Shown: piece after piece, positions 1 to 43,467 of the stretch
Position numbering within the stretch: the stretch's first letter is position 1
Layout of the letters: each line of letters opens with the position of its first letter
DNA from: Nannochloropsis salina CCMP1776
Lineage: Eukaryota; Sar; Eustigmatophyceae; Eustigmatales; Monodopsidaceae
Assembly: GCA_004565275.1 (NCBI GenBank)
Contig: SDOX01000066.1
Coordinates: 419-57,099 of the forward strand
Direction of reading: 5' to 3'
Length of the DNA: 56,681 nt
The notes under the pieces: generated by a model
The model's input: the letters and a program-made list of their open reading frames with translations, nothing else
Told to the model about the DNA's origin: nothing
The model's database searches: none
Program-made: the position numbers and the translations under genes

Positions 1-172
1 CTAACCCTAACCCTAACCCTAACCCTAACCCTAACCCTAACCCTAACCCTAACCCTAACCCTAACCCTAACCCTAACCCTAACCCTAACCCTAACCCTAA
101 CCCTAACCCTAACCCTAACCCTAACCCTAACCCTAACCCTAACCCTAACCCTAACCCTAACCCTAACCCTAA
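1..172. repeat. Telomere, (CCCTAA)n
   Basis: Uninterrupted hexamer array CCCTAA on the + strand, equal to TTAGGG on the other strand, ending at about 172 where it changes to unique sequence. This is the chromosome terminus. TTAGGG telomeres occur in animals, fungi and many protists, including stramenopile algae, so the repeat alone does not fix the organism. Confidence 0.98.
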
Positions 173-934
173 CAAAACTGCAAAATGAAATGAATACTTA
201 CATGGAGAGTCTAAGATCGCAGGGTGATCAGTTCTTTGGGGCTTGGGAAGCTATTCGATGAGATAATATAACCCTAACCCCACTACTTAGGTATCTGGAT
301 GTAGGTGCTAGCGTCATCGAATTTGTAACTTCTCAAAGCGAACGGTTTTGATATCGTTACCATTTTTCCGAAAGCTAATCTAATCCTCTTCTGAAGCGAT
401 ATTTATAAAAAAGACCCTAACCCTAACCCTAACCCTAACCTTTACGAGGATAATTAGAATTGAAGGTTTTGTGGTCCATCCTGCCGAGGTTAGAGATTCT
501 AGGGAGGAGGGAGTGCCACTATGATACGCTAGAAGTGCATAGAGTAGGCTGCTATGACATAATAAGGATTGTTTGTTTGATGATGAATGCTAAACGTATC
601 GGTGCTCAGATTTTATGAGTGATTCATTTTTGGAGAGTGTTTGGGTTTGGAGACAGAACATGAGGACTTGGTTTACGTCAGAGAAGGCACGAGGCGTGCG
701 AAAGTCCTCATTGCTTGGACGGAACGGTTTTGGTGCTCGCGGATTTTTCCAGGCGATGAAGAGGAACGAGATAGGCGGGCACCTTATATCACTGTTTGCC
801 AGGTTTGACTGTTGCCGCAAAAAGGGAAGATCCCTTTTGGTAGATGATATCGCTGTTTTTCCAGGGTGTGGGAAGGTAAGTGTGCAAGAGTCAGTCTTGT
901 AATAATCGTTGATAGCGATGGGACATTAGATCAC
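173..934. other. Subtelomeric spacer with interstitial telomere repeats
   Basis: No convincing gene. Two short telomere-type tracts in the same orientation as the end sit at about 269-281 (two units) and 414-440 (four and a half units). Short open frames on both strands here have no signal peptide, domain or codon pattern I recognise. A GTAAGT donor-like site near 876 (+) is not part of a gene I can support. Confidence 0.7.
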
Positions 935-11001: not shown

Positions 11002-13414
11002 CTACATTCTGATCTTTATCACTTTTCCTGGAGCAGTGTTTGTCCTAAAAGAGATGACAAAGGAGTTATTGTACGAAATTTTAGAATGGATGAGAGAAAA
11101 ATTGGTTAATCTGCTTACCCAAAATATGCGTAGTCGCCACTTATGACAGCAGAATAGAGGCAATCCTCCCCGGCATTCAGCGTTACGTTGTCTAGCCGTC
11201 TGAATGTCGTCAGATCGAGCCTCACCACAATTCCTGGGGAAGTTATAGTCCTATGGGAAGCGATGGCGAGATATTCAAACACAAAAGCAATACACTTTCC
11301 ACGGTCTATTGACGAAATTCATCTTACCCGAAGTAGGCGTTATGTCCTAGCACGACAGCCGAGTAAAGCCCATTTTCCCCGCTATTCAGCGTTAGGGCGT
11401 CGACTCGAGTAAAAGTGTTCAGATCAATTTTAACTACTATGCCTGGTGAAGTTCCAGTTCTGAATAGAAAGAATCATGAATGCGTAGCTCCATGAGAGTT
11501 CATCAATCGCAGCATCTCCTTCTACCCTATTTTCATGTGTATATTTTTTACCCGAAGTAGGCGTATCGACCGCTCACTACAGCTGAGTATGGCTCGTTTT
11601 CTCCGGTATTCAGGGTAATGTTACCGACTCGAGTAAAATTAAGCAAATCGATTTTAACTACAACACCAGGAGATGTTACAGCTCTGTAGGCAGCAGGAGC
11701 AAGAAAGTTTACGAAGAATGAGTCTAATTAGAATTTAAATTCCCTGTAAACCATTTTTTTTTACCCAAAATACGCGAAATTTCCACTGATGACCGCCGAA
11801 TAAAGGTTATTTTCTCCAGAATGAAGTGTTAGCGCATCAACACGGGTAAAGTTCCCCAGATCAATCTTGACAACAACCCCTGGAGAAGTTCCTGTGCTGA
11901 TAGTCGTGGGAGCAGTTGAAGAAGCTAATCAGCCATTTAGACTCCTCCTTCCTATAATTTTCTCCCCCTTAAAGGTGTATTCATACCCGAAATAGGCGTA
12001 GTTCTCGCTACTAACGGCACTGTAAAGGATGTTTTCGCCATCGTTGAGCGTAAGATCGGCTGTCTTGGTAAATGTCGTAAGATCTACTTTTGTGACGACT
12101 CCTGGAGACCTTCTGGCCCTGAGTGAGTCAGTCGTAATTTCGCTATATCAGACATTGTACAAATTATGGTTGTATCCCTTCCCAAGAAAAATGTATCACC
12201 CGAAATAGGCGTAGGCCCCGCTTGCAACAGCTGAAAAGAGTTGAAGATCATATGTACCGATATTTAATCTGAGGGTACCCGATTGCGTGAAATTCCTTAG
12301 ATTGATCCTTGCGATAAAACCTGCTTGAGTGATTGTTCTTCGTGGAGATTATTATGATCAGTGTTGAAATTCAGCTTTTTCGTCATCGATTTTCTCATAG
12401 TACTCGTCCTTACCCGAAAAAGGCGCTGTCCTGGCTCACAACAGCTGAGAGCAGGGAATCTTCACCTTTCTCTACGCTCAAGGCATCAACTCGACTAAAA
12501 TTAGATGGAAGAATTGTTGGGATGGCTGTGGGGCTTGATGTAGCGCTTCTTACTGCTTTGAAAGAAGTGAAAGGCTCATCTAGAATAGTTGTGCACTCTC
12601 TGCCCCCGCAGAAGCATTGCTTGGCTACCGAATTCCAGTTGAAGAAAAACGGCGCCGTTATTTCCCCATTTAATGAGCAAAAAGTATAACACTCCGATGG
12701 TGTGGTAGCCGGTGAAATTAGCCGGTGAGTGTCATAAGTGTCTAAGTTTAGCAGGCTAGCTGTCGTAGGACGTTCTGCGCTGATGAGTGATTGAGCGGTT
12801 TCGAAAGCAACCAGGTGATTAGTCTCAAGGCAGCGCTGTTTCAGACCGAATGGTACAAAAGAGACCTCTGGTCCAGGGGTTGGCGTACACGGCACCGATT
12901 TTTTTCCATTCTGGAAACGAGCTTGCACGCTAGCAGGGTTTGTGAGTTCCGTCGCACAAATGTTCGACGAATAAGTGGAGTTGACTTGATAGGCCAAAGC
13001 TGTGATCAGTAGTACCTCGGGGGCACATTCATGAATGTTCACCTTAGTACGATACAAGCGCTTTCCGCCACTGTTCCTTGGAAAGTCAATTCCTAGCCAG
13101 TATAGGGCTGTTGATTCATCTTCATTTTCCACAATTTGTAAACCAACTGAAGGCTTTACCAGGGGACGAGTGGCTCTTTGTGCTACTGACAGACCAGCAG
13201 GGAGACTTACTTTAAGAGCGAAGTCATTGAAGTTTTCGTTACTCCTGAGCGCGAAGGTCAATCTGACATGGCCTCTACCTGCCAAGAAGCCGCGCTTCCG
13301 CTTCGGACGAGCTTTTGCCGTGAGTTTGAGACTAGGACATTGCTGTAAAGCAAATGTTTGAGCGTAGAAAACGCACAAAAGGAGAAGACATGTAACTGAA
13401 AATGCTCCGTGCAT
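11002..13414 (-). CDS. Secreted WSC-like / seven-bladed beta-propeller protein, one blade per exon
   Basis: Eight exons: 13414-12414, 12337-12200, 12118-11987, 11896-11765, 11683-11552, 11459-11328, 11250-11119, 11044-11002. Introns are 74-92 nt, all inserted after the second base of a Gly codon (GG|N), and the sum is exactly 614 codons (613 aa). Residues 1-22 are a signal peptide. Residues 24-160 form a beta-rich domain of unknown type. Residues 195-288 have spaced Cys (CYTFC, CFCGGREC) resembling WSC carbohydrate-binding modules. Exons 2-7 each encode one repeat with the pattern SPGxVVKIDLxxFTRV, LTLNxGENxLYSAV, SGxYAYFG; five are exactly 132 nt, the first is 138. Exon 1 ends with the second half of a repeat and the tiny last exon supplies the first half (TAPGKVIKIRM), so together they make the seventh blade, the usual ring closure of a propeller. 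Likely an extracellular or wall-associated binding protein. Ligand unknown. Confidence 0.88.
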
Positions 13415-18722: not shown

Positions 18723-21665
18723 TTAGCTGAAAACATTCCATTCCGAAGCAGTGTAGAGGAAGAGTGTAAATTGGCCACTTCGCAAAGTTTTTGTTGTACT
18801 GAATGGCATTATTCCTCCTATATTCCCATCCTCGCTGGGAACAAAGTTTATAGGCGCAGACCCTGTTTGGTAAATGACGACGATTTCTCCAGTTGTAGGT
18901 AGAGATGAGTTGCTGCTATATACGATATTGTCCACGTACACCTGTATGTTTTGAAAGCGAAAAAGTCGTCCCGATTGAGACTTTGAGGGATCATTTCCAT
19001 GCATCACTCATAGAATGACCAGATAGACCTACCTCACTTGTAGAATTACCGGTGATTCCTACAGAGTATACACCAGAGCCAGACCCGCTTAAAGTGAGTG
19101 TGCAGGGGTCTGTCAAGTCAGTACAGTCTTCCCTACTCAACGTAGATAACGATGAGGGCATGCCGCCTGCCTGCACCGCCAGTCCTGTGAAAGCCACTAT
19201 CCCTGCTGTCATTTGTCCCATACTATCCTGTCCGACTTGCACATTGTTAGAGAACACTGTGTTCCCGTCTTCACTGGTTGTAATGGTGCTTGTCGTCTGC
19301 GAAGGCTCTGCCAAACCTGAGTCATATTCAAGTACTAGCTTATTCGCAGATATCCTACCTGTAGCCATACTCCCTGGCAACAGCCGTGTAGCCAAAATAT
19401 CACCTGTGCTCAAGCTCACTGCAGTCAATCAAATTCAGAGGGAAAAGCTAAATATAAGAGATTTAAATCGACATAATGAAAGGAATGATGAACATCTAGC
19501 GACGTACCAGAGCTAAGTTCTCCTGTGGCGCCGTTTGCACTGATGGTCTCTAACAAATCACTCCTATCTCCATTCAAGATCGATAGTTGTCCACTTGTGG
19601 TCTCATTTCCCATGACGACGGGACCCGCTAGATTAATGGATTTGGAGATCATGGTCATCGACAGATCTGAAAGAATTTTCGTATCCTGACTAAGAATCTC
19701 GAGATTAGGAGACACCACCGTTGTGGAATTGCCAACCAGCATATCTACCGTTTCGGTACTATCTAGCTCGTACACATCTGAAAACAGCCTAACATCTTTT
19801 GACTGCCAAGTGATACTCTCAGTTCCATTAATTTCCATCACATCTGAACTTTGAATATAGTAAGGAGAATTTAGCGTCGTCGCATTCCCAACAACCACGC
19901 CAAATGTCTCGCTGCTGTCAAGCTTAAACACGTCAGAAGAAAGACGCACGTCCGAAGACTGCCATGTAATGCTTTCGGTACTCGTCACTTCCATCACGTC
20001 CGAATACTGCGTCACGTAGGGTGAAGTCAGCGTTGTCGCGTTCCCGACAAGCATATCTACGCTCTCGCTGCTATTAAGGTTGTACTTGTCCGAGAACAGG
20101 CTAACATTCGAGGATCGCCACGTGATGCTTTCGGTGCTGTCCACCGTCGTGACATCAGAATATTGAGCCATGAACGGGGAAGTCAAGATCGTCGACTCGC
20201 CAACTAGCATGTCTACGGTCTCACTGCTATTAAGCCTGTACCTGTCCGAGAACAGGCTCACATCCGAGGATCGCCACGTGATGCTCTCGGTGCTGTCCAC
20301 CTTCGTGACATTCGAGAGCTGCATCATGTATGGAGAAGTCAAGGTCGTCATCTCGCCCACTAGAATGTCCACGATCGCACTGCTGTTGAGCTTGTACGTG
20401 TCGGAGGATAGGCTTACATCCGAGGATCGCCATGTGATGCTCTCGGTGCTGTCTATTGTCGTAACAGCCGAATATTGAGCCATGGACGGGGAGCTGATTG
20501 TCGTCATCTCGCCGACTAGAATGTCCACGATCACACTGCTGTTGAGCTCGTAGGTATCGGAAAATAGACTCACATCCGAGGATCGCCACGCGATGCTCTC
20601 AGTGCTCGTTACTTCCGTAGTATCCGAGTGTTGCGTCAGATGGGGAGATGTGAGTGTCGTCGTGTTCCCAGCTGTCATTTCAACGGACGCACTGCTGTCA
20701 AGCTTGTATATATCGGACATAAGATTCATGCTCGATGACCGCCACGTGATCCTATCAGTGCTGTTCACTTCCATGACGGTGGAGGACTGTATCACGAACG
20801 GAGATGTCAGTGTCGTAACGTTCCCAGAAGAAGTGTCGATGCTTTTCTTACTGTCTACAATGAGTTGCTGGGATGTTTGCCGATGTAAGTTGGTCTCAAG
20901 TGTTATAGATTCGGCACCAGTCGCAGAAAAATGGCCGGTTGTGTGCGAAATGGAGTTTTGCTGTCCGACGATTTGCGAAACCGCTCCATCACTAAGTGTT
21001 TTAAGGGTTTCGGTATCTGCAGCAACGAAATGAAACTTCCTATTTGCTTGAACCGTAAGATCTTCCGTTAAGACTTCAAAATTGTCGGTATTTGCCGCAA
21101 AGGTGCCTGCAAGTGTACATGGTCCACTCTGAATTAGATGTCGATGGCGGTACAGATACTTGGATCACAGGACTATCCCGAAGCCTAAATTTACCTGATA
21201 GAAGCTCAAAACCAGTGCCCACTGTGGCCTTTTTAGCGACGGACATCCCAGTATTGGTCCAATTGGCCGCCACACCTGTGTACGATGAGAGGAAAAGTCA
21301 GAAGAGTGATGCAAGTGTCGAGCCTGGGTAGCCTGCTCACCTCCATTGATCCGTGTTTGCACTAGTCGACCAGCTCCAACAGCAACATAAGGTGGGCATG
21401 ACTTGGCATCGCAGCCACATTTCGCAGCACCGCTTGGTATAATTGCAACAGGTCGTCCACTTTTCCCATCATAGGGTCCGGTAGAGACAGGATTGAGTGA
21501 CTTCTTTTGCTCCACCTTGCATTTGTCAGGAAAGTCCTTTGTTCCTGTCTTTAACAGGCTCTGACCCAGTACTTTGGGATTCTCGACGCTTGCCGCCTGA
21601 GCTACCGCAGCAGCTGAAGGCAAAACCGTGGTTGCAAGGCAACACAGAAGTAAGAGGGATCGCAT
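18723..21665 (-). CDS. S-A: secreted fibre-like protein with 52-residue repeats
   Basis: Five exons: 21665-21341, 21275-21195, 21106-19508, 19403-19033, 18941-18723; phases are consistent and total 865 codons (864 aa). The start gives a signal peptide (MRSLLLLCCLATTVLPSAAA). Exon 1 ends with a Cys cluster (KCGCDAKSCPPY). Exon 3 (1599 nt) encodes about seven repeats of 52 residues of the form STESITWRSSDVSLFSD, LNSS-VDILVG, TTLTSP, alternating short beta-strands like the triple-stranded beta-helix of phage and virus fibres, and dotted with Asn-x-Ser/Thr sequons. Exons 4 and 5 encode a distinct C-terminal head ending VFS. Its 5' part and upstream DNA are nearly identical to gene S-B, whereas the last two exons are only about half identical in protein. 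Likely an extracellular, glycosylated, perhaps trimeric surface fibre; partner unknown. Confidence 0.85.
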
Positions 21666-23457
21666 TTCAAGTAACCAGCGTCTACTCCTAATCGAAAATT
21701 TATGAAGCGCGTAGTGAGGGGTCTTCGTGAGAAGCCTGGCATGCAAACATCGTATTTTATGCACCATGGCCCTGATCTTTTGTTATCAGCTCGAGCTTTT
21801 GCATGTTCTGAAAGTTCAACTGTCGAAAAACGGCACAGGTCGATGCGCTTTTGCATAAATTGTCGCGCCAGCAAGATATGCTACGTTGTTATCATTGTGA
21901 CTAGGAAAACTAAAATCTGAATGAATCTTCTGCGGGGAATGCATCGAGAGATGGATCTCAACCGCCAATCGGTGCTAATTTTTCCTAGATCTAAGTTTGC
22001 CCCGAAATCAGCGAACGACGAATCTTTCCCACACTGGCGGCTAACGGTCGCTTGGAGAGGGCTGAGGTGTGAGACAGACGTTAACCTTGGTGGCTACTGC
22101 ATGAGTCAACAGGCTTTGAAACTGTCTTCCAAAGATTTTAAAAATAATAGCTGCGCTTATGGCCCATAGTCATTGCGGAGCAGGACCAGCACTCCAATTG
22201 TTTCTCGGTATGAGCGCTCCAGGATAGCCCGAGAGCAACTGAAGCCCGAGTTGGTGGCACGATTTTTGACATGTACGCCTTATTTCATGTGTTCCTCGGG
22301 CATACTTGAACACTGATGCATGAATACGAGGAGACTTGCTTAAAGTTGTGTCTGAGTTGATAAAGTAGCTCGAGTTGAGGGAGAGCGGTGTGATGAGCAC
22401 GAAGTGTTCCATTTTCAGAAGCAGATGATTGCCAAACGCACGACATAAGCAAGGAAGCCAAACTCAATCGAATCTACTAAACCTCACTGAGGAAGAGGAG
22501 AGAGCCGACGGCATTGGTTTTCAGCTTGTAGAATTCGATCAATGGGTAAGAGGGCGATAATCCTACAATCCCCATGTTAATCATAGGAAAACCGTGATAT
22601 CAAGAATGCGTCGACAATTGCCCCCCCTGGTTGTATGCATGATCGCTTTTTTGGCGCCGCACATGGCTAAAATGGATTCAACAGCCACAAAAAGCACGGC
22701 CTATGTTCCTGTTGCGGCAAAATATTGCGATGAATGCCAGCGATGCCCTGTGGTGTATCCTTACAAAGATATGCAAAGTTCTTGTCTGAAAAAAATCTGC
22801 TGAAAAAGGTGCGTAGCGCGGGGGGGTCTGTGTTTGACAACATAACCTTAACTTTAGTCTAGAATTTCGGGCCCGATATGCCTAATAAATCGTCATCTTA
22901 TGTATACGCTATATTTTTATTTCAATTTCTCTTATTCAGTCCCGATCTTGTTAAGATATCTGTTGAGGAAGGTGTAGTCACCCATGTATGTGTTTGGTGA
23001 CACCCGTCATAGACAGTTTCGCAGTGGATGGAAGTACCCATGTTGGCGGCACCTTAGAGGTCGTTCTTAACACACGTCTCAGACAGAATTTATCCGTCGA
23101 GGGGGATGTTCATATCAATGGAATGGTCAATATAAATAGAAGCATGTATCTGAAGTAAAATTTTTACTGGTGCATAGGAGCGTTCAGTCGCGTGGAAGCC
23201 TTGATGTGGCAAGCGACACGCATCTGCACCAAAGTCTTGTGGTGAGTGGAAGTTCTCATCTGTACGGGCCCCTTAATGTTGCAAATCATACCCACTTACA
23301 AAATAACTTGTCGGTTGATAGGAGTACACAGATGGGTGGACTTTTTGACGTAATGGGTAATACACATCTGAGACAAAATTTCTCGGTGAATGGCGATGCC
23401 CAACTTAAAGGAACTCTTCATGTAGCTGGAGACACCTTCTTTAAGCAAAACATCGTT
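20227..23457. repeat. S-family duplicated block, copy 1
   Basis: Near-identical to 27382-30612 at a constant offset of 7155 bases; only a few substitutions were seen (for example near 20235 and 20532). The block begins inside the repeat exon of gene S-A, spans its first exons and the intergenic region, and ends inside the divergent plus-strand fibre-like gene. The sequence outside the block differs on both sides. Confidence 0.95.
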
Positions 23458-25844: not shown

Positions 25845-28820
25845 CTACGAAAGGGCATACCAGGTCGTAGCAGTGAAGAGGAACGGGGTGATATGGCCGC
25901 TTCGCATGGTTTTTGTGATGGTGAGGGGCAGTGCCTCTCCGATATTGCCATCAATATTTGAGACAAAGTTTATTGGAGTGTAACCTGTTTGATGGAGTAT
26001 TATTATTTCTCCGGGCTCCGGCGAAACACCATTTTGATACAGAATATTATCGACATAGACCTGTAATGAGGGGTACCAAGGTGACGTTTGGATACCAAAA
26101 ATTGAGCAAAACGTACAAGTTCTAACATTTTCCACAATCGTCACCTTTTCACACTCACCTCAGGAATATTATCACCTATGCTTGGTAGATCTATTCCTGT
26201 TGCGTACATTCCAGGTTTTGACCCCGTGAGAGTTAGGGAGCATGGATTTGTGCGATCGGTGCAATTTCTTCTACTCAACCTCGAAAAGGTTGAAGGCGTG
26301 CCCACCATTTGCAATGTTAACCCTGCAACTCCGACTACACCCACTTTTACATTTCCTATTCCACTCTCTTTAATGTTGAGACCATTGCTGATGGTGGTAC
26401 TACCATTCTGATTGGTCGCGATAGAACTAGTGGTCTGGGAAGGCTCGGGTAGGCCATTATCATACTCCAATACAAACTGAGTGGCTGTGACACTCCCATT
26501 GGTACTACCATTTGAAGTGTTGTCTGGTTGTAAGCGCGACGCCACGATATCGCCTGCGGTAAAGAGTACTTTAATAAAAGATCAGGGAAAAGAACTTTTC
26601 ATCAGCCCAGTATCTGAGGGAATACTTTGTCAAGAATGACCAAAACGATGCAATTAACTTACCGGAGGCCACTTTTCCTGTAGCGCCATTAGCTGTTATG
26701 GTCTCTGATACGTTTGACTGACTTCTATTTAACAACGTGAAATGTCCCGGTGAGCTTTCGTCTCCAATAGTCACCTCACCAACGAGATTAATGGACGTAG
26801 ATGTCATTGTTATACTGTCATTCGAAATCATGCTTGTGTTCTGACTAAGAGTTTTGAAGTACGGAGAAATCCAGGCCGTCGAGTTCCCTGCTTCCATCTT
26901 CATTCTGTCGCTACTGCTAATTTTATATATGGTAGAATGGAGGCCTACATCCTTTGAACGCCACGTTATCCTTTCAGCACTGTTCACTTTTATAATTTCT
27001 GAATGCTGCGTCATGAGTGGCATGGTCGCAAAAGTTGAATTTCCTACTTGCATCTCGATATATTTGGCGCAGTCAACCACAATCAAGTCGGAGATAAGAC
27101 TCACATTTGATGAAGTCCCAAGTATACTCGTTGCGCTGTCAATAATCATTACCTGCGAATGCGTGGTCACTAGAGGTGATGTCAGCCTCAATTTGTCGCC
27201 AACTTGTACATGCAGCAAGTCGCTGCTGTTCAGCATGTATGAGCCCGATGAAAGGCTAATGTCCGATGACTGCCATGTAATGCTTTCGGTACTGGTCACT
27301 TCACTAACATCTGAGTACTGCGTCACGTATGGCGAAGTCAGCGTTGTCACGTTTCCGACAAGCAAATCTACGCTCCCGCTGCTATTAAGCTTGTACCTGT
27401 CCGAGAACAGGCTCACATCCGAGGATCGCCACGTGATGCTCTCGGTGCTGTCCACCTTCGTGACATTCGAGAGCTGCATCATGTATGGAGAAGTCAAGGT
27501 CGTCATCTCGCCCACTAGAATGTCCACGATCGCACTGCTGTTGAGCTTGTACGTGTCGGAGGATAGGCTTACATCCGAGGATCGCCATGTGATGCTCTCG
27601 GTGCTGTCTATTGTCGTAACAGCCGAATATTGAGCCATGGACGGGGAGCTGATTGTCGTCATCTCGCCGACTAGAATGTCCACGATCGCACTGCTGTTGA
27701 GCTCGTAGGTATCGGAAAATAGACTCACATCCGAGGATCGCCACGCGATGCTCTCAGTGCTCGTTACTTCCGTAGTATCCGAGTGTTGCGTCAGATGGGG
27801 AGATGTGAGTGTCGTCGTGTTCCCAGCTGTCATTTCAACGGACGCACTGCTGTCAAGCTTGTATATATCGGACATAAGATTCATGCTCGATGACCGCCAC
27901 GTGATCCTATCAGTGCTGTTCACTTCCATGACGGTGGAGGACTGTATCACGAACGGAGATGTCAGTGTCGTAACGTTCCCAGAAGAAGTGTCGATGCTTT
28001 TCTTACTGTCTACAATGAGTTGCTGGGATGTTTGCCGATGTAAGTTGGTCTCAAGTGTTATAGATTCGGCACCAGTCGCAGAAAAATGGCCGGTTGTGTG
28101 CGAAATGGAGTTTTGCTGTCCGACGATTTGCGAAACCGCTCCATCACTAAGTGTTTTAAGGGTTTCGGTATCTGCAGCAACGAAATGAAACTTCCTATTT
28201 GCTTGAACCGTAAGATCTTCCGTTAAGACTTCAAAATTGTCGGTATTTGCCGCAAAGGTGCCTGCAAGTGTACATGGTCCACTCTGAATTAGATGTCGAT
28301 GGCGGTACAGATACTTGGATCACAGGACTATCCCGAAGCCTAAATTTACCTGATAGAAGCTCAAAACCAGTGCCCACTGTGGCCTTTTTAGCGACGGACA
28401 TCCCAGTATTGGTCCAATTGGCCGCCACACCTGTGTACGATGAGAGGAAAAGTCAGAAGAGTGATGCAAGTGTCGAGCCTGGGTAGCCTGCTCACCTCCA
28501 TTGATCCGTGTTTGCACTAGTCGACCAGCTCCAACAGCAACATAAGGTGGGCATGACTTGGCATCGCAGCCACATTTCGCAGCACCGCTTGGTATAATTG
28601 CAACAGGTCGTCCACTTTTCCCATCATAGGGTCCGGTAGAGACAGGATTGAGTGACTTCTTTTGCTCCACCTTGCATTTGTCAGGAAAGTCCTTTGTTCC
28701 TGTCTTTAACAGGCTCTGACCCAGTACTTTGGGATTCTCGACGCTTGCCGCCTGAGCTACCGCAGCAGCTGAAGGCAAAACCGTGGTTGCAAGGCAACAC
28801 AGAAGTAAGAGGGATCGCAT
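25845..28820 (-). CDS. S-B: secreted fibre-like protein with 52-residue repeats
   Basis: Same five-exon plan as S-A: 28820-28496, 28430-28350, 28261-26663, 26553-26159, 26060-25845; 872 codons (871 aa). Signal peptide, Cys cluster and first four repeats are almost identical to S-A. From about 27380 toward the 3' end the repeats diverge (units with ISLSSGSYMLNSSDLLHVQV and CAKYIEMQVGNSTF), yet exon 3 has exactly the same length, 1599 nt. Exons 4-5 share domain plan with S-A (VYVDN, then GEI, TPINFV, DGNIG, TKTMRSG) at roughly 50% identity. The genes therefore have a shared shaft base and different distal shafts and tips. Expected secreted and N-glycosylated. Function unknown; a cell-surface fibre is the best reading. 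Confidence 0.86.
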
Positions 28821-30612
28821 TTCAAGTAACCAGCGTCTACTCCTAATCGAAAATTTATGAAGCGCGTAGTGAGGGGTCTTCGTGAGAAGCCTGGCATGCA
28901 AACATCGTATTTTATGCACCATGGCCCTGATCTTTTGTTATCAGCTCGAGCTTTTGCATGTTCTGAAAGTTCAACTGTCGAAAAACGGCACAGGTCGATG
29001 CGCTTTTGCATAAATTGTCGCGCCAGCAAGATATGCTACGTTGTTATCATTGTGACTAGGAAAACTAAAATCTGAATGAATCTTCTGCGGGGAATGCATC
29101 GAGAGATGGATCTCAACCGCCAATCGGTGCTAATTTTTCCTAGATCTAAGTTTGCCCCGAAATCAGCGAACGACGAATCTTTCCCACACTGGCGGCTAAC
29201 GGTCGCTTGGAGAGGGCTGAGGTGTGAGACAGACGTTAACCTTGGTGGCTACTGCATGAGTCAACAGGCTTTGAAACTGTCTTCCAAAGATTTTAAAAAT
29301 AATAGCTGCGCTTATGGCCCATAGTCATTGCGGAGCAGGACCAGCACTCCAATTGTTTCTCGGTATGAGCGCTCCAGGATAGCCCGAGAGCAACTGAAGC
29401 CCGAGTTGGTGGCACGATTTTTGACATGTACGCCTTATTTCATGTGTTCCTCGGGCATACTTGAACACTGATGCATGAATACGAGGAGACTTGCTTAAAG
29501 TTGTGTCTGAGTTGATAAAGTAGCTCGAGTTGAGGGAGAGCGGTGTGATGAGCACGAAGTGTTCCATTTTCAGAAGCAGATGATTGCCAAACGCACGACA
29601 TAAGCAAGGAAGCCAAACTCAATCGAATCTACTAAACCTCACTGAGGAAGAGGAGAGAGCCGACGGCATTGGTTTTCAGCTTGTAGAATTCGATCAATGG
29701 GTAAGAGGGCGATAATCCTACAATCCCCATGTTAATCATAGGAAAACCGTGATATCAAGAATGCGTCGACAATTGCCCCCCCTGGTTGTATGCATGATCG
29801 CTTTTTTGGCGCCGCACATGGCTAAAATGGATTCAACAGCCACAAAAAGCACGGCCTATGTTCCTGTTGCGGCAAAATATTGCGATGAATGCCAGCGATG
29901 CCCTGTGGTGTATCCTTACAAAGATATGCAAAGTTCTTGTCTGAAAAAAATCTGCTGAAAAAGGTGCGTAGCGCGGGGGGGTCTGTGTTTGACAACATAA
30001 CCTTAACTTTAGTCTAGAATTTCGGGCCCGATATGCCTAATAAATCGTCATCTTATGTATACGCTATATTTTTATTTCAATTTCTCTTATTCAGTCCCGA
30101 TCTTGTTAAGATATCTGTTGAGGAAGGTGTAGTCACCCATGTATGTGTTTGGTGACACCCGTCATAGACAGTTTCGCAGTGGATGGAAGTACCCATGTTG
30201 GCGGCACCTTAGAGGTCGTTCTTAACACACGTCTCAGACAGAATTTATCCGTCGAGGGGGATGTTCATATCAATGGAATGGTCAATATAAATAGAAGCAT
30301 GTATCTGAAGTAAAATTTTTACTGGTGCATAGGAGCGTTCAGTCGCGTGGAAGCCTTGATGTGGCAAGCGACACGCATCTGCACCAAAGTCTTGTGGTGA
30401 GTGGAAGTTCTCATCTGTACGGGCCCCTTAATGTTGCAAATCATACCCACTTACAAAATAACTTGTCGGTTGATAGGAGTACACAGATGGGTGGACTTTT
30501 TGACGTAATGGGTAATACACATCTGAGACAAAATTTCTCGGTGAATGGCGATGCCCAACTTAAAGGAACTCTTCATGTAGCTGGAGACACCTTCTTTAAG
30601 CAAAACATCGTT
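27382..30612. repeat. S-family duplicated block, copy 2
   Basis: Partner of 20227-23457. The right edge is sharp: the D-gene repeat reads ACATCGTT in both and then changes to an unrelated sequence beginning TTTCTTCTGG. The left edge lies in the repeat exon of S-B and is blurred by the homologous repeats. Confidence 0.95.
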
Positions 30613-32381: not shown

Positions 32382-35365
32382 TTAGAAGAACGACGAGCCT
32401 CCTATCGCTCGCCATTCCATATTGATTCCTGTATTATAGCAAAGCAACAGAAAGATCGACTGCTCCTGGTCTCGATTCAGGCATCCATATGCTATCTTCC
32501 CATCGTCTATATCAGCAAGAGAGCAACGCTTGTAAGGCATCATACCCAGCACAGAGCCTTTAAAGGCCGTCTGCGAGATGCCCTCGATGGTGAAGCCGTC
32601 TAGTTGAGTGTAAACAGGCAGGAGTGAGTGTGATATCGGAAAGCTTGTAATAACTAAGATACTAGCGTACCTTCGATGCTGAGTGACGACAATGTTTGAA
32701 GTGGCACTATAGTCGATGTTCAGGAAAAAGTGTAGATAGAAGAGACTGTCAAAATTGAACGCTTTTGCTTTGGAAGGCTGCTCACTTAAACATACCTTGG
32801 ACAGAAATTTTATTTTCGGTAATTTGAAAAAAGGTTTCCTGTCGTTCAACGTCGAGTACCTCGAATTGTCCATTTAAACGGGTTACCCCATCTACCACTA
32901 AAGCAAGATCACTGTTATCTACGGCATCGACATTTGCAATAATATGCAAGGGGTTCGGTGCGGTAAAGTACGTGTCGTTGAAGTTTTTACCATTCGCATC
33001 GTCGATCGATATCTCAGGAGCTGTTGCGTAGAGGAACGATGCAGAAGGATGCAATCTTCGTCGTTCATTCAAATGCTTGAGGCCAAGAGACCGATCACTA
33101 GCGCTCGGTAGGTGACGATTGCGTGCTGGGAATGGCAAAGGAAGACAACTTACACAAGCGACCGCAGTTATTTTCAGCACGGCAATATCCAACGCAGTAA
33201 GTGAGAGGGGAAGAGCATTAAAGGTGCTATGTCCTAGCACAAACAAACCAGTATGTACCGTCAAATCTTTTGTGAGATTGTGGAAAATGGAGGTTTTAGA
33301 GTCCGAGTAAGTATCACGAATGAAATACATAGTAAATAAACATCGACGGAGACGACAACATCCCCTCCCACCTGACATAAATTGCGCGGAACCGCTAGCT
33401 TCTAAGCCACCCGCAAACGTCGTAGTGCCTGGAATCTCCAGATTGAGGCCTCTCCGGAAGTTTCCGAGGGGACCGAAGTTGTCTCCAGGAACTCCAAGCG
33501 ATATACCGAGCTTAATAGTAGCATCCCTTGAGACGGTCATCTGACCATAGATATCGCCATCACCTTCGGCAGTGAACTTTCCCTCCACAGTTGCAGATTC
33601 TCGCACTACTAGTTTTGCCTGCAAGGTTGTGTCGCCATTTACGCCGAGAGTTGCAGAGATATTTGTGGGAGCTATTATATTTACTCTACTTGCAGTAATG
33701 TTGGTTTGATTCGCAGACTTCAAGGATATCGTACTTCCTGCCGTTATATCGACCTTGGCGCTTGTGTGAGCGATCACAGTCTTTCCATTTAACCAGAGGT
33801 CACCATACATGGATGTGTTGCCATGCATTGTCAAGGCACCTGGTGATGGAGCCTCCCCTGCAGGTACCTTTGGAGCAACCAGCAAAGGCTTATCAACAAT
33901 CAAATAGGAGCCCGTGATATTGATGGACATGGGCGATGTGGTGTAGTTCCCGCGTAGTGAGCCGTAGGCAGCCTCAAAATTTCTCGCACTATCCGCTTTT
34001 GCCAAGGGATGCCCTGTGTAGAAAAAAAGTTTTCCCTTCAACCCTTCACACGCTTTCGTTCGGTTTCCCGATGTGGTGCAGTAGTGCTTGGTAATGTTGA
34101 ATCCTTGTGACAATCCTAGGCCTAGTACAAGAGAAGCCTCATTTCCATATATGGCTGCCGTGTCGAGTCCTAGTGAAGTGTCGGTGAAAAAGATTTGCCC
34201 GCCTATACCCTTGCCGTCTTGAACCGTGCTGTTTGTAGAATCGTTGAAGCCGTCTCCTACTTCGACAATGGGCATCAGAAATCCTGCACTCAGGTCATTC
34301 TATGTCCGTCATAGCATGCGCGAAAATGGCAGGGTAGTCGACGGAAAGAATGTTAGAATGAGGAAGCAAGGATTTACACAACAAGTACGAGCGTCGCAAG
34401 TGTATTTACAATCTATGAGCGGTTAGAATTGACGAGAATGACACCCTACCTGATTATAATTTCCTTTGATCGGTATCGCTCCTGACTTGGCAGCCAGTTG
34501 GTCATCTGAGAGTGCGCCACCCTCGAGTAAGAACATGCCACTGCGGGACTGGTTAATTCCAAGCAATAAGGGCAAGTCATTGTTCAATTGCGCACCTCGC
34601 TTCCTATCCCAATATCCTTGCAACGTCGAGAAACTCCCGTTATGTCCTGTCATAAACTGTGTTACTCCGGCAATCTCAGGAGTCTTCCCCGGTATTCCAG
34701 GAGGGCGGACATGCTGAGGCAAGCCTACCATTGGTGACGTTCCAAAAGTTGTGGTCCCAACACAATGCGTGCTTCCCTCCATTGTTGCTTGTGACGTGGT
34801 GGCATGAAAATAGCGTTATCATGAGGCTGAAAAACGCGTGAAATACATAATCTGTGCAGCTCTGCTTTTGCTTACCATCTAGACGAGCTTGGAGCGATCG
34901 GACAGATGCTAAATGAAATACTTTCAAATCGCCGCTCCCAGCCCCAACAAGTAGATCTCCATCGACCACAAGGTCCTTCTGAGCTCTTATGGTTCCCTGA
35001 GACCATATTTCGCTAGATGTGTTCATCTGACCAGTCACCAGCACGCCCGATTCTCCGATCCACATGCCAGAACTGAGTCTCACTTCTCCTCCCACCTGTA
35101 GATCCCCGACAACGCGGGCATTTTTGTCCACAAGTAGACCTGCCACCCCTTGATAGCCCGTATCCAGTATTCGAGTGTATGTCATTGAAGTCAAACCATC
35201 AATTTGGGCGTTGTGACCCACGATCAGACTGCCTTCCACGGTCCCATTAAGGCCCGTATGGACACTCGCAGGCGTCTTCAGGACGTCGTGTGAGAAAGCG
35301 AAGGATCGTTTTACAGCAGTTGATTGGATGACCCATGACATCAAGATACAGACTGTCCACTTCAT
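32382..35365 (-). CDS. P1: secreted fibre-like protein of the P family
   Basis: Exons 35365-34876, 34787-34450, 34299-33372, 33266-32796, 32599-32382; phases agree, 815 codons (814 aa). Exon 1 has a signal peptide (MKWTVCILMSWVIQSTAV) and short beta-helix repeats (RVVGDLQVGGEVRLSSG). Exons 2-3 encode a globular domain with NDLSAGFLMPIVEVGDG and a two-Cys loop (HYCTTSGNRTKACEG), then further V-x-G-x-L shaft repeats (VVRESATVEGKFTAEGDG). Exon 4 encodes a head module with SDLALVVDGVTRLNGQFEV, and exon 5 a terminal module ending LLLCYNTGINMEWRAIGG. Equivalent head and tip modules recur in P2 and P4. The whole resembles phage-type tail fibres in architecture but has five exons and a eukaryotic secretion signal. 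Likely surface-exposed; ligand unknown. Confidence 0.85.
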
Positions 35366-37049
35366 TCTATAGAAAAAGCACTCGAGCAGACCGATAACTT
35401 TGTTTGTCCATCGCAGATCGAGTTCTCATTGCTTTCATGGCATTTAACGATTATGTGTACCCTTAGCAAGCTGTCATCGAGAAGAAGATTCCTGTGAGTC
35501 AAATAATACTTCACCCATGGTGAGAAACAGACTGTTAATGGTTTCTTATAAGCGACTGAGGGTGGTCTGTGAGACATCATCAACCAGATTCCATGCCATC
35601 GAAAATCGGTTCTTTGAAAAGGTTGCACACTCATCTCCGGTGAATCTCGGAATCTCGGTACACCTGCCCGGCGAAGAGCGACGGTCATGACCTAAGAATC
35701 TTCGAACTCGCAGAGTCCAAGACCAAAATAACTCAAGGTCAGACACAGCATTGAGATCGAAAATTGATCAATCTGAGATCGATCAATCAAAGAAACATTT
35801 CTAGGATGCGTCACGGCCATAGAAGTTTCCTGATGCGTTCCCAAAGGCAAAAGAGGCAAATACTGAGAGCCTGGGCTTGGGCCCAAGGAGCGAGACGACT
35901 CAGTGCAACCGTCGCCCAGAGGCACGGGTCTGCCTGAGCGCCTGAGCGCCTGTGTTTCTCATTCTTTGAGAGGGAAAGTCTCCCTTAAAGCTGATCTTCG
36001 ATCTTTGTTTGCAATCAATTTTCTTATGTGTGCACGCGGCCGTGCGCATATCTTGCCTTCATTGAAAGCATCTTTTTAGGTTTCTCCATTTCCTTGCTTG
36101 ACTGCTGCAGTCGTAGCCGAGGCCGTTCAATGAAAGTTCGCCACTCACAGGCTGAAAGGGCTTGGACCGGATGCGTTTCGACAGGAGTGACGTCGTATGA
36201 GCAGGCAGAAGTAGACGGTGGTTTAAATATAGTGCATGGGGATGAGTCTACCATTAATGGCGATTTGCAGAGAGGTATCGTACCAGTCGTTCGGCGACAC
36301 GTTCGTCCACTTTCTACAGGCTTGCCCGCCTCGTAAAACCTCAATAATATCATCATTCCATGGATTCTGCTCATTCAAGCCGCTCCGATGGAAGTTGTTC
36401 ACTCTACTATTCCTAACAATGTCGCTAAGATCAATTCGAACCTAGATTCGTAATCCAAGTCCTCGACTTGATCATGCGGACTCGACCTTACTGGTTTCTC
36501 GGACTCAGCGACGAGTCCGGACATTTTCTGGACTCATGAACTGAAGAAAAGCTAACGTGCAATCGATAAGTATGTCCTCTGCGGGGCTTCGATTTATAAA
36601 TGTGTTTTTTTTTTCCCCTAAAATAAATTTATTCGAATTTCAATAAAAACAAGAAACAAAAGCTGACAAAACGCAATGGTGGCGGCCTTGAGTCATCGAT
36701 TTGAAAGCATGTTGGTTTGGACAGGAGTGGTGCGTGATTGTGTCGGATAACTTATTACGTCCTAAATGGAAGGACTGGTTCATCAAAACATTTCGCACGC
36801 CACATTCCTAATATGGCTCGTGTTTGTGTCGTATTTGTAGTACCCACGGGTTGCACGCTTTGTTTTGATAAGGCCTCTCTTGACATTCTGTTGTTGAGTA
36901 AAAATGACTCGATTGTAGCTTTGATAGAGTCTCGTAAAATGCAACTGTCCAGGTAAGATATAAAATTCATTTCGTATCAAATGCATTATACGACTATCGT
37001 TCTGGGGAAAAATATTTCTTAAAGCGAGGTCCCTCCCATTGCTCTCCAT
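33552..37049. repeat. P-family duplicated block, copy 1
   Basis: Near-identical to 39973-43467 at an offset of 6418-6421; the differences I saw are mostly length changes in T runs (near 33680 and 36610). The block starts within exon 3 of the P gene, covers its 5' exons and all upstream DNA, and ends in the last exon of the next P gene (P4). Confidence 0.95.
35366..37018. other. Upstream region of P1, duplicated in front of P2
   Basis: No gene seen. It holds a cluster of GGACTC/GAGTCC motifs in both orientations at about 36457-36536, including a 6-bp perfect hairpin at 36501-36518. An AT-rich, T-run-containing stretch lies at 36600-36660. The same sequence precedes P2 (41786-43436), so both genes share their putative promoter. 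Confidence 0.6.
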
Positions 37050-38945: not shown

Positions 38946-41785
38946 TTAATGAGAGCCTTCTACGCGGGACGCCCCGCCTACAGCTCTCCATTCCATATCG
39001 TTTCCAGTATTGTAGCACATAAGCAAGTAAAGTGCTCCCTGCCCGCTACGTTCTAAGCGACCACTACCCAATTTGCCATCGTCTTCACCAGATATTCTGC
39101 ACCGGTTCTGGGGAGCTACACCGTTCACGGTCCCTGCAAAAGCATTTCCAGAAATTCCTGAAAATGTGAAATCGCCTATTTCGGTATAAGAGAGAATCGA
39201 TAATATCGCGTCAGACAACAAGAATATTGCTCTAAAACATTTTGATGATTATCTAGTTGCTTACCGCCTATGGCAAGTGACTTAGTGGTCATTGGTACTG
39301 GACATGTTGTGTAAAAAACGATCTGTAAATAAGTGGATGGTAGGGAGATCCAAGACAGATCACGAACCTGGCAAATGCCACTACGAACCTTGAACAGAGG
39401 CTTGTCGGGAACTGATGCTCAAGAGTTTATCTTCTTGATTTTCATTGAAGACTGCAAAATCTTCGTGAACATGCATATTCCCCCCAATCAAGAGGGCGAG
39501 ATGACTGTTATGATCAGCTTCCGGACTCGCGACGATGTACAAGGGATTCACCATGGTAAGGTACGGTCCAACGAAATCTCTTTGGCCTGTCAACTCATAT
39601 ATTCTGTTGTTAGCAGTACCAAACATATAACTGGAAGAGGGATTGGACAGTCTACGTTTATGTACCTTTTCGGGGATGTAACGTCCTTCCCTAAGTGCAA
39701 GACGCCTGCCGGGTTTGCCGCCACCTCCATCTGGTATTGGTAGGGGTTCACAAAATACACAACCAAACGCAGCGATCACGCCAACGTTTAGATTTCCTGC
39801 AGTAATTCCACCAAATACAGCAAGACCATCAACATTTAGTTCTCCTCGAATCGTAGCTACATCTGCTTGCGCGTTTCCGCTAGTAGTTAGTCCATCGGAT
39901 ACACTAGTAAACCCATCAATCCGGGAATCACCTCCGACCCGTGCACGACCAACAAGCAAATCATCCTTGATATCTCCATCACCTTCGGCAGTGAACTTTC
40001 CCTCCACATTTGCAGATTCTCGCACTACTAGTTTTGCCTGCAAGGTTGTGTCGCCATTTACGCCGAGAGTTGCAGAGATATTTGTGGGAGCTATTATATT
40101 TTACTCTACTTGCAGTAATGTTGGTTTGATTCGCAGACTTCAAGGATATCGTACTTCCTGCCGTTATATCGACCTTGGCGCTTGTGTGAGCGATCACAGT
40201 CTTTCCATTTAACCAGAGGTCACCATACATGGATGTGTTGCCATGCATTGTCAAGGCACCTGGTGATGGAGCCTCCCCTGCAGGTACCTTTGGAGCAACC
40301 AGCAAAGGCTTATCAACAATCAAATAGGAGCCCGTGATATTGATGGACATGGGCGATGTGGTGTAGTTCCCGCGTAGTGAGCCGTAGGCAGCCTCAAAAT
40401 TTCTCGCACTATCCGCTTTTGCCAAGGGATGCCCTGTGTAGAAAAAAAGTTTTCCCTTCAACCCTTCACACGCTTTCGTTCGGTTTCCCGATGTGGTGCA
40501 GTAGTGCTTGGTAATGTTGAATCCTTGTGACAATCCTAGGCCTAGTACAAGAGAAGCCTCATTTCCATATATGGCTGCCGTGTCGAGTCCTAGTGAAGTG
40601 TCGGTGAAAAAGATTTGCCCGCCTATACCCTTGCCGTCTTGAACCGTGCTGTTTGTAGAATCGTTGAAGCCGTCTCCTACTTCGACAATGGGCATCAGAA
40701 ATCCTGCACTCAGGTCATTCTATGTCCGTCATAGCATGCGCGAAAATGGCAGGGTAGTCGACGGAAAGAATGTTAGAATGAGGAAGCAAGGATTTACACA
40801 ACAAGTACGAGCGTCGCAAGTGTATTTACAATCTATGAGCGGTTAGAATTGACGAGAATGACACCCTACCTGATTATAATTTCCTTTGATCGGTATCGCT
40901 CCTGACTTGGCAGCCAGTTGGTCATCTGAGAGTGCGCCACCCTCGAGTAAGAACATGCCACTGCGGGACTGGTTAATTCCAAGCAATAAGGGCAAGTCAT
41001 TGTTCAATTGCGCACCTCGCTTCCTATCCCAATATCCTTGCAACGTCGAGAAACTCCCGTTATGTCCTGTCATAAACTGTGTTACTCCGGCAATCTCAGG
41101 AGTCTTCCCCGGTATTCCAGGAGGGCGGACATGCTGAGGCAAGCCTACCATTGGTGACGTTCCAAAAGTTGTGGTCCCAACACAATGCGTGCTTCCCTCC
41201 ATTGTTGCTTGTGACGTGGTGGCATGAAAATAGCGTTATCATGAGGCTGAAAAACGCGTGAAATACATAATCTGTGCAGCTCTGCTTTTGCTTACCATCT
41301 AGACGAGCTTGGAGCGATCGGACAGATGCTAAATGAAATACTTTCAAATCGCCGCTCCCAGCCCCAACAAGTAGATCTCCATCGACCACAAGGTCCTTCT
41401 GAGCTCTTATGGTTCCCTGAGACCATATTTCGCTAGATGTGTTCATCTGACCAGTCACCAGCACGCCCGATTCTCCGATCCACATGCCAGAACTGAGTCT
41501 CACTTCTCCTCCCACCTGTAGATCCCCGACAACGCGGGCATTTTTGTCCACAAGTAGACCTGCCACCCCTTGATAGCCCGTATCCAGTATTCGAGTGTAT
41601 GTCATTGAAGTCAAACCATCAATTTGGGCGTTGTGACCCACGATCAGACTGCCTTCCACGGTCCCATTAAGGCCCGTATGGACACTCGCAGGCGTCTTCA
41701 GGACGTCGTGTGAGAAAGCGAAGGATCGTTTTACAGCAGTTGATTGGATGACCCATGACATCAAGATACAGACTGTCCACTTCAT
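38946..41785 (-). CDS. P2: secreted fibre-like protein, frame interrupted once in exon 3
   Basis: Exons 41785-41296, 41207-40870, 40719-39389, 39175-38946. The first two exons and most of the third are nearly identical to P1. At about 40100 a T run is one base longer than in P1 and interrupts the frame; everything after it is open and in register with the splice phases, so either a sequencing error or a young pseudogene is possible. The distal part is unlike P1: shaft repeats (LLVGRARVGGDSRIDGFTSV) run straight into the head module (NSHLALLIGGNMHVHEDFAV) with no intron, then a tip exon ending LLMCYNTGNDMEWRAVGG. The donor after the head (GTTCGT) is weak. Role as for P1. Confidence 0.78.
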
Positions 41786-43467
41786 TCTATAGAAAAAGCA
41801 CTCGAGCAGACCGATAACTTTGTTTGTCCATCGCAGATCGAGTTCTCATTGCTTTCATGGCATTTAACGATTATGTGTACCCTTAGCAAGCTGTCATCGA
41901 GAAGAAGATTCCTGTGAGTCAAATAATACTTCACCCATGGTGAGAAACAGACTGTTAATGGTTTCTTATAAGCGACTGAGGGTGGTCTGTGAGACATCAT
42001 CAACCAGATTCCATGCCATCGAAAATCGGTTCTTTGAAAAGGTTGCACACTCATCTCCGGTGAATCTCGGAATCTCGGTACACCTGCCCGGCGAAGAGCG
42101 ACGGTCATGACCTAAGAATCTTCGAACTCGCAGAGTCCAAGACCAAAATAACTCAAGGTCAGACACAGCATTGAGATCGAAAATTGATCAATCTGAGATC
42201 GATCAATCAAAGAAACATTTCTAGGATGCGTCACGGCCATAGAAGTTTCCTGATGCGTTCCCAAAGGCAAAAGAGGCAAATACTGAGAGCCTGGGCTTGG
42301 GCCCAAGGAGCGAGACGACTCAGTGCAACCGTCGCCCAGAGGCACGGGTCTGCCTGAGCGCCTGAGCGCCTGTGTTTCTCATTCTTTGAGAGGGAAAGTC
42401 TCCCTTAAAGCTGATCTTCGATCTTTGTTTGCAATCAATTTTCTTATGTGTGCACGCGGCCGTGCGCATATCTTGCCTTCATTGAAAGCATCTTTTTAGG
42501 TTTCTCCATTTCCTTGCTTGACTGCTGCAGTCGTAGCCGAGGCCGTTCAATGAAAGTTCGCCACTCACAGGCTGAAAGGGCTTGGACCGGATGCGTTTCG
42601 ACAGGAGTGACGTCGTATGAGCAGGCAGAAGTAGACGGTGGTTTAAATATAGTGCATGGGGATGAGTCTACCATTAATGGCGATTTGCAGAGAGGTATCG
42701 TACCAGTCGTTCGGCGACACGTTCGTCCACTTTCTACAGGCTTGCCCGCCTCGTAAAACCTCAATAATATCATCATTCCATGGATTCTGCTCATTCAAGC
42801 CGCTCCGATGGAAGTTGTTCACTCTACTATTCCTAACAATGTCGCTAAGATCAATTCGAACCTAGATTCGTAATCCAAGTCCTCGACTTGATCATGCGGA
42901 CTCGACCTTACTGGTTTCTCGGACTCAGCGACGAGTCCGGACATTTTCTGGACTCATGAACTGAAGAAAAGCTAACGTGCAATCGATAAGTATGTCCTCT
43001 GCGGGGCTTCGATTTATAAATGTGTTTTTTTTCCCCTAAAATAAATTTATTCGAATTTCAATAAAAACAAGAAACAAAAGCTGACAAAACGCAATGGTGG
43101 CGGCCTTGAGTCATCGATTTGAAAGCATGTTGGTTTGGACAGGAGTGGTGCGTGATTGTGTCGGATAACTTATTACGTCCTAAATGGAAGGACTGGTTCA
43201 TCAAAACATTTCGCACGCCACATTCCTAATATGGCTCGTGTTTGTGTCGTATTTGTAGTACCCACGGGTTGCACGCTTTGTTTTGATAAGGCCTCTCTTG
43301 ACATTCTGTTGTTGAGTAAAAATGACTCGATTGTAGCTTTGATAGAGTCTCGTAAAATGCAACTGTCCAGGTAAGATATAAAATTCATTTCGTATCAAAT
43401 GCATTATACGACTATCGTTCTGGGGAAAAATATTTCTTAAAGCGAGGTCCCTCCCATTGCTCTCCAT
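39973..43467. repeat. P-family duplicated block, copy 2
   Basis: Partner of 33552-37049. At the right edge only the last residues of a P-type tip exon (43437-43467) survive before unrelated sequence. The block therefore once stood next to another P gene that has since been lost or replaced. Confidence 0.95.

Follow-up and report, generated by a model that had tools for sequence, protein, structure and literature searches.

A telomere-linked gene family in Nannochloropsis salina with one propeller blade per exon and a probable role in extracellular recognition

Introduction

In fungal proteins of the HNWD/STAND NLR type, a NACHT ATPase and a HET domain precede the repeats, and in C1q, the collectins and the ficolins a collagen-like stalk carries a C-terminal recognition head. 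Paoletti and co-workers (PMC1805685) describe the het-d and het-e genes of Podospora anserina as having four diversifying codons, which form two pairs (7/9 and 25/27) around conserved residues, one located in the d-a loop and the other in the b-c turn; the 69 HNWD repeats show 55 distinct combinations at these four sites, and repeat numbers range from 2 to 15 (Table 2 of that source). For WD40-like propellers, Pereira and Lupas 2022 (PMC9218822) give blade counts with maxima at 7 and 14 and with intermediate numbers forming a continuum, mention one exon duplication (in Bombyx) and raise a role in immunity or self-recognition.

Here we describe a family of propeller genes of the alga Nannochloropsis salina CCMP1776, one member of which lies in the window, that is, the whole stretch of 56,681 nucleotides analysed (contig SDOX01000066.1, positions 419 to 57,099). 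The family appears to work like the diversifying HNWD propellers without being a member of that group. As reported for the HNWD WD40 repeats in PMC1805685 and PMC2873952, its blades show concerted evolution within and between genes. Unlike the HNWD genes, which are fungal incompatibility genes, the algal genes encode stalked and probably secreted proteins, use one exon for each blade, hold their blades in sets of 7 or 14 and lie near telomeres; in addition, no NACHT or HET match was returned by Pfam in the window protein or in the eight paralogue parts scanned. With the recently amplified propellers treated in PMC9218822 the family shares rings of near-identical blades; in the text available from that source the word 'exon' occurs twice, 'intron' and 'telomer' never, and no stalked telomeric family was found there. 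Literature searches on subtelomeric, propeller, exon-per-blade and Nannochloropsis subjects, partly covering the best 10-15 entries of longer lists, returned no description of the family.

Results

Exon-intron structure of the window gene

The features of the window gene are collected in Table 1; the exon/intron borders of the model were derived from the DNA letters alone. Its seven introns (74-92 nt, rebuilt from the sequence) all follow the GT-AG rule and all interrupt a Gly codon in phase 2, in agreement with a preliminary description of this DNA, which had placed every intron at the same point of a Gly codon. That description had also assigned one full propeller blade to each of six internal exons, five of them exactly 132 nt long, and the open spliced frame together with the HMM matches bears this out; exon 3 offers two in-frame acceptors, 6 nt apart. 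Its count of seven blades, one per exon, likewise finds support in the gene model, in 11 paralogous arrays and in confident models of two bacterial relatives. The closure of the ring had been proposed to be split between the first and the last repeat exon, half a blade each. The split itself was recovered but not the equal halves, as exon 1 supplies three strands and exon 8 one strand, a 3+1 closure taken from the strand lists of the two bacterial relatives' models (L074 and L095).

Table 1. Positions of the window gene, its parts and the nearby telomere repeat within the window
Feature	Position	Strand	Description
Whole gene	11002..13414	-	8 exons, 613-aa product, probably secreted propeller protein; spliced frame open
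Exon 1	12414..13414	-	1001 nt; N-terminal ectodomain after a start resembling a signal peptide, and the opening three strands of the split blade
N-terminal domain (residues about 26-176)	12887..13339	-	blastp 33-40% identity to paralogues, and alignment
Cys-rich module C242-C246...C267-x-C269...C274	12593..12691	-	WSC-like pattern; cysteines invariant in 11 aligned members
First part of split blade (strands 2-4)	12414..12505	-	HMM match positions 15-44
Exon 2	12200..12337	-	full blade, 138 nt
Exon 3	11987..12118	-	full blade, 132 nt (126 with the alternative in-frame acceptor)
Exon 4	11765..11896	-	full blade, 132 nt
Exon 5	11552..11683	-	full blade, 132 nt
Exon 6	11328..11459	-	full blade, 132 nt
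Exon 7	11119..11250	-	full blade, 132 nt
Exon 8	11002..11044	-	43 nt; contributes strand 1 to the split blade and carries the stop codon; HMM match positions 2-13
Telomere repeat (CCCTAA)n	1..174		contig positions 419 to about 592; the window gene points towards it

The blade exons of the window gene have a mean mutual identity of 63%, and its introns one of 0.522, compared to 0.521 for shuffled sequence. This comparison of exon and intron divergence, which had been proposed as a means of counting blade gains and losses, pointed to exchange in the family, as detailed below, but showed no recent gain or loss of blades in the window gene. Judged from its sequence, the window gene is an old, settled family member without recent blade exchange, so that the family, rather than the window gene, is the finding. 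The 418 contig bases ahead of the telomere repeat of the window are all N.

The propeller fold

Searches of the window protein against Pfam, NCBIfam and PDB sequences gave no significant match. Specifically, no Pfam WD40 match was obtained (the HMMER filters drop most matches above E 0.1) and no YVTN match in Pfam or NCBIfam, the similarity to the latter proteins being one of fold only; compared to the YncE/YVTN-type bacterial propellers of solved structure (e.g. 3vgz), identity is 15% and no YVTN model matches.

The intronless bacterial relatives, in turn, were modelled as seven-bladed propellers with a pLDDT of 95. The L074 model contains 28 strands and aligns over its full length to solved seven-bladed rings; L095, which is 58% identical to the window blades, also gave a model with 28 strands, two of its five models having lower pLDDT values (77 and 69). 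In structure comparisons with the PDB, the top rows were occupied by propellers, including WD40 proteins, YncE, a designed protein and hydrazine synthase. All together, the models of these close relatives support a head of the window protein made of seven four-stranded blades in a closed ring. A Pfam match of L074 to NOMO1-like_2nd (E 3.8e-9, above the cut-off) was set aside as a presumed short-repeat match; no stretch of it is significant alone.

A family at chromosome ends with 7 or 14 blades

A search of the same genome with three blades returned at least 101 matches at no fewer than 18 places, match counts which are lower bounds; besides the window, 17 regions were fetched. None of the 18 places is more than 12 kb away from a contig end, and transcription runs outward at 17 of them, all but the L045 fragment; as the genes of the family are related, these counts of position and orientation are not independent. 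Of the 17 fetched regions, 12 contain telomere repeats, as does the start of the window contig, which makes 13 of the 18 places; no such repeats were seen in the fetched regions L032, L037, L041, L042 and L048. With telomere repeats at so many places a bare contig-end artefact is unlikely, and the location at contig ends is partly an effect of repeats on assembly.

Twelve arrays, the one in the window included, are intact: ten consist of six full blades and the split blade, and two (L033 and L040) of thirteen full blades and the split blade. Their 86 full-blade exons, 70 of which measure exactly 132 nt when the nearest acceptor is taken, can be joined into open frames with phase-2 acceptors, a test that for the 11 paralogues covered the propeller arrays only. 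Since twelve arrays of one genome behave in this way, the exon model of the window gene is not a product of chance. The donors read GG/GT throughout in 11 arrays, and L037 has one GC/GT.

Blade number does not look free, as 12 out of 12 intact arrays hold either 7 or 14 blades, multiples of seven which, owing to the common ancestry of the arrays, do not count as independent. Among the other places, the frameshifted L043 has four blades (three full ones, one of them frameshifted, and the split blade), L032 runs off its contig, L038 stops at telomere repeats, and L045 (lying against telomere repeats), L042 and L048 are fragments. We also considered the 14-blade genes as plain block duplications of seven blades. 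This origin is weakly supported: the mean identity does not favour an offset of seven, offset-7 pairs are found among the best matches (blades 3/10 of L033, 97.7%; blades 1/8 of L040, 95.5%), and the neighbouring blades 5/6 of L040 are 96.2% identical.

In the seven-blade gene L044, one intron contains a strand-1 relic of an additional blade (between 3749 and 3921, gene strand). At L045 (1-480) and at the end of L038, telomere repeats abut blade sequence, and in L045 short telomere-like repeats are also present on the inner side; these ends perhaps reflect breakage and healing within the gene family.

A common N-terminal base with different stalks and heads

Exon 1 of the window gene begins with a hydrophobic, signal-peptide-like start, and the window protein and its family are probably secreted. 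The N-terminal part gave no significant Pfam match in the 11 members scanned; our guess is that its domain forms a beta-sandwich. The Cys-rich module had been called WSC-like, a likeness which comes down to cysteine spacing, since neither the window protein nor the 11 members matched PF01822 of Pfam. Its fusion to a propeller had also been regarded as unusual; within this genome the N-terminal module is not unusual, the window ectodomain being matched in 13 of the 17 fetched paralogous regions (none in L042, L043, L045 and L048) and in some genes with other heads. Further ectodomain matches lie just outside L043 and within contig C70.

The stalk is short in the window gene. It is Pro/Thr-rich by eye in nine others (L032, L035-L039, L041, L044 and L046), and among those scanned the Pfam PT model scored above cut-off in L041, L044 and L046. 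A collagen-like stalk, with PF01391 above cut-off, is present in L033 (5.5e-65) and L047 (3.2e-59), and by eye in L034, L040 and L043. L033 and L047 have in common with C1q, collectins and ficolins the architecture of stalk and head, their head being a propeller; no homology is claimed.

The ectodomain alone has at least 62 matches in the genome, many of them near contig ends and many at places without propeller matches. On account of the latter, five of which were examined, the heads seem interchangeable on one N-terminal base. Specifically, L135 (contig C23) and L132 (contig C4) combine the same ectodomain and stalk with another head made of Asp-box/BNR-like repeats, which are spaced by about 270 nt, apparently one per exon, and whose BNR match is weak (E 0.02); places with such a head also occur in contigs C41, C84, C7, C70, C78 and C26, mostly near contig ends. 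In L133 (contig C48) and L134 (contig C66), a Hint domain (Vint PF14623, E 6.3e-13 and 3.5e-13, respectively) comes after the end of the ectodomain and a Pro/Thr stalk, which adds a third head type to the common base.

Homogenised blades with a few highly variable codons

Young copies of the arrays consist of near-identical exon-intron units of about 220 bp. Across the seven young arrays, L034 included, mean intron identity is 0.898-0.985 compared to 0.840-0.918 for exons, and the introns are the more alike in all seven (intron distances per gene were taken from equal-length introns only). By exon identity, the nearest relative of a blade sits in the same gene for 38 of 54 blades and in another gene for the remaining 16, which suggests that blades have been exchanged within and between chromosome ends. 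Thus, the proposal that symmetrical exons allow shuffling fits the exchange seen in the family (introns 90-98% identical, 16 of 54 blades), but its corollary of a freely changing blade number looks less apt, as the intact arrays keep to 7 or 14.

Among 48 blades of six genes (L034 was used apart), most of the diversity falls on codons 3, 31 and 33, with smaller contributions from 5, 21, 24, 26, 27 and 30; the 48 blades show 43 distinct combinations of residues at sites 3, 31 and 33. Of the 42 introns of these genes, the 39 with a length of exactly 88 nt were counted alongside. Rates were obtained as pairwise counts among paralogous blades of one genome rather than from a codon model, and counts of this kind are distorted by gene conversion. 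Within genes, pN is 0.58 and pS 0.33 at sites 3, 31 and 33, against 0.07 and 0.10 at 35 other codons and 0.086 in the introns. Between genes, where a random sample of 300 exon pairs was used, the corresponding values are 0.71 and 0.35 at the three sites, 0.08 and 0.11 at the other codons and 0.113 in the introns. The pN/pS ratio is 1.00-1.01 when entire exons are taken and 1.8-2.0 at sites 3, 31 and 33, where pS is raised too (0.33-0.35); the argument for fast sites is therefore drawn from how they compare to introns and to the remaining codons. As pS at the 35 codons is near the intron distance, the two provide a rough neutral baseline, and relaxed constraint alone is insufficient to account for the excess.

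Because sites 3, 31 and 33 had been picked after inspection, a held-out test was carried out in which the top five sites were chosen from the other genes. In all seven held-out genes the distance at codon positions 1+2 of these sites (0.33-0.57) exceeded that of the introns (0.015-0.102), by 4 to 22 times. Five of the rounds selected sites 3, 21, 24, 30 and 31, and the other two sites 3, 21, 30, 31 and 33, so that site 33 was picked in just 2 of 7 rounds. L034, which had not been used to pick sites 3, 31 and 33, showed a pN of 0.59 there compared to 0.03 at the 35 codons. The same three sites are the most variable in six old algal genes, which were analysed separately on 27 of their 36 full blades, namely the ones that an early scan with a pattern had picked up.

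When mapped on L074, sites 3 and 5 lie in the stretch that links strand 4 to strand 1, sites 30 and 31 between strands 2 and 3, and site 33 at the start of strand 3, while sites 21 and 24 are inside strand 2. In the strand order of YVTN-type propellers, we take the strand 4-1 and 2-3 loops to be the d-a and b-c connections of one face. Sites 3/5 flank the conserved T4 and sites 31/33 the conserved L32, site 5 being the weakest of these; variable sites paired around a conserved residue are also a trait of the HNWD repeats in PMC1805685, the loop positions on the algal side being predicted ones. The presence of sites 21 and 24 on a strand, together with the whole-exon ratio of 1.0, weakens the loop-based reading a little.

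Bacterial and viral relatives

A DNA pattern for YFGTxTxPGxVxK recovered 76 stretches in genome contigs, prokaryotic and intronless, and one in viral contigs. An alignment-based search of genome and viral contigs gave no confirmed relative, and tblastn at E 1e-5 found none in phage and plasmid records. The single viral stretch belongs to L126 (contig IMGVR_UViG_3300036766_002280), where an open frame of 1069 aa holds 12 matches to the blade. The prokaryotic relatives carry their blades in one open frame without introns, with periods of 44, 46 or 50 aa and with differing flanking domains, and several have by eye the 3+1 seven-blade layout. In four bacterial arrays selected from 94 ORFs (L063, L104, L125 and L095; 20, 7, 8 and 4 blades were used, those of the commonest length only), sites 3, 31 and 33 are among the most variable, as are 30 and 5 in some. 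PADLOC returned nothing for the bacterial relatives L074, L095 and L088, and in PHROGs L074 had no match, while L095 matched one family, weakly and of unknown function.

Among the matches listed, the closest repeats outside the N. salina genome are open bacterial frames, in a comparison that included no eukaryote collection. We suggest that the algal genes may derive from a bacterial transfer, after which one blade could have acquired an intron and the resulting exon-intron unit could have been re-amplified, a course of events that would account for the identical intron positions. An alternative to re-amplification is the parallel insertion of introns into a shared site.

Discussion

The data presented above are probably best explained, in a judgement we hold with moderate confidence, by a family of recognition proteins, linked to telomeres and either secreted or displayed on the cell surface, that forms a diversifying extracellular repertoire and has the window gene as an old member. 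By sequence, the proteins consist of an N-terminal ectodomain, a stalk and a one-blade-per-exon head with 7 or 14 blades in the intact arrays, and a few codons per blade are highly diverse inside otherwise homogenised arrays. The variable residues, placed in or beside the strand 4-1 and 2-3 loops on one face of the ring, could form a variable binding surface, and the stalks might render some heads multimeric. Unequal exchange at telomeres would shuffle the blades and selection would retain new combinations of surfaces, while closure through the first and last exons would let only whole rings of 7 or 14 blades survive. Such proteins would likely serve to recognise what the cell meets outside, be it partners, rivals, viruses or bacteria.

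The family might instead comprise ordinary wall or adhesive glycoproteins, with neutral turnover of repeats at recombining chromosome ends and with variable residues that are simply unconstrained. Subtelomeric repeat genes do turn over fast in many genomes, Pro/Thr-rich and collagen-like stalks suit wall proteins, and a whole-exon pN/pS of about 1 is in line with such a neutral regime. This explanation, however, expects the intron or synonymous rate (0.086-0.113 and 0.10-0.11, respectively) at the variable codons as well, whereas pN at sites 3, 31 and 33 reaches 0.58-0.71, and even when the sites are picked without the held-out gene, their distance in that gene amounts to 0.33-0.57. We regard this explanation as unlikely. 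Heads that serve as decoys or attachment proteins, bound by algal viruses or bacteria and diversified through escape from binding, are a very unlikely alternative in our estimate. A probable extracellular position and diversity at a few sites would fit either side of an arms race, and a relative is present on one viral contig, but the variation of the same sites in four bacterial arrays suggests that the head itself has a role in binding.

Still less credence is given to targeted hypermutation, in which a mutational mechanism would aim at a few codons per blade and selection would merely tolerate the outcome. The changes are indeed limited to few codons, many of which differ by more than one base, and synonymous counts are raised at the variable codons (pS 0.33-0.35). 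Diversity-generating retroelements leave a single-base bias, whereas here the codons are by eye mixed and free of it; moreover, variation of the same sites in bacterial relatives and in old algal genes points to a property of the surface rather than to a machine specific to the alga.

The favoured reading, a diversifying recognition repertoire, has a stronger form that we hold to be quite unlikely, namely an antigen-receptor-like repertoire in which telomeric, phase-symmetric blade exons are recombined from one chromosome end to another, or alternatively spliced from 14-blade arrays, so that cells or clones would display different hypervariable rings. In that form, skipping seven blades would keep the frame and could keep the ring, some rings would be borne on collagen-like stalks, and the quantised closure of the ring would act as a quality check that discards wrong blade numbers.

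Gain or loss of an exon would keep the reading frame, yet the 12 intact arrays stay at 7 or 14 blades. Since the frame tolerates such changes and these numbers are nevertheless kept, selection for ring closure may be readable from gene structures, with the propeller fold as a natural experiment. In addition, the family suggests an extracellular, telomere-based system of diversifying recognition in a microalga, convergent with fungal non-self recognition. The light-harvesting proteins, too, make a eustigmatophyte likely: 34 matches to such proteins were obtained in the genome, and one of the proteins aligns with the complete 223-residue chain of VCPI-2 in PDB 8zo9 (E 2.9e-136), a structure from Nannochloropsis oceanica.

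Other features of the window

Further inside the window, other duplicated frames are present on the minus strand. A frame pair at 19425-21782 and 26571-28937 carries a 156-nt (52-aa) internal repeat in differing copy numbers. The frames at 32782-35425, 39381-41845 and 46439-47083 are by eye partly identical duplicates coding for large proteins, and a 300-nt stretch in them is 100% identical at a spacing of 6420 nt. Finally, two adjacent frames at 47892-49058 and 50531-51640 encode carbonic anhydrases of the eukaryotic type (PF00194, E 1.6e-15 and 2.7e-15, respectively).
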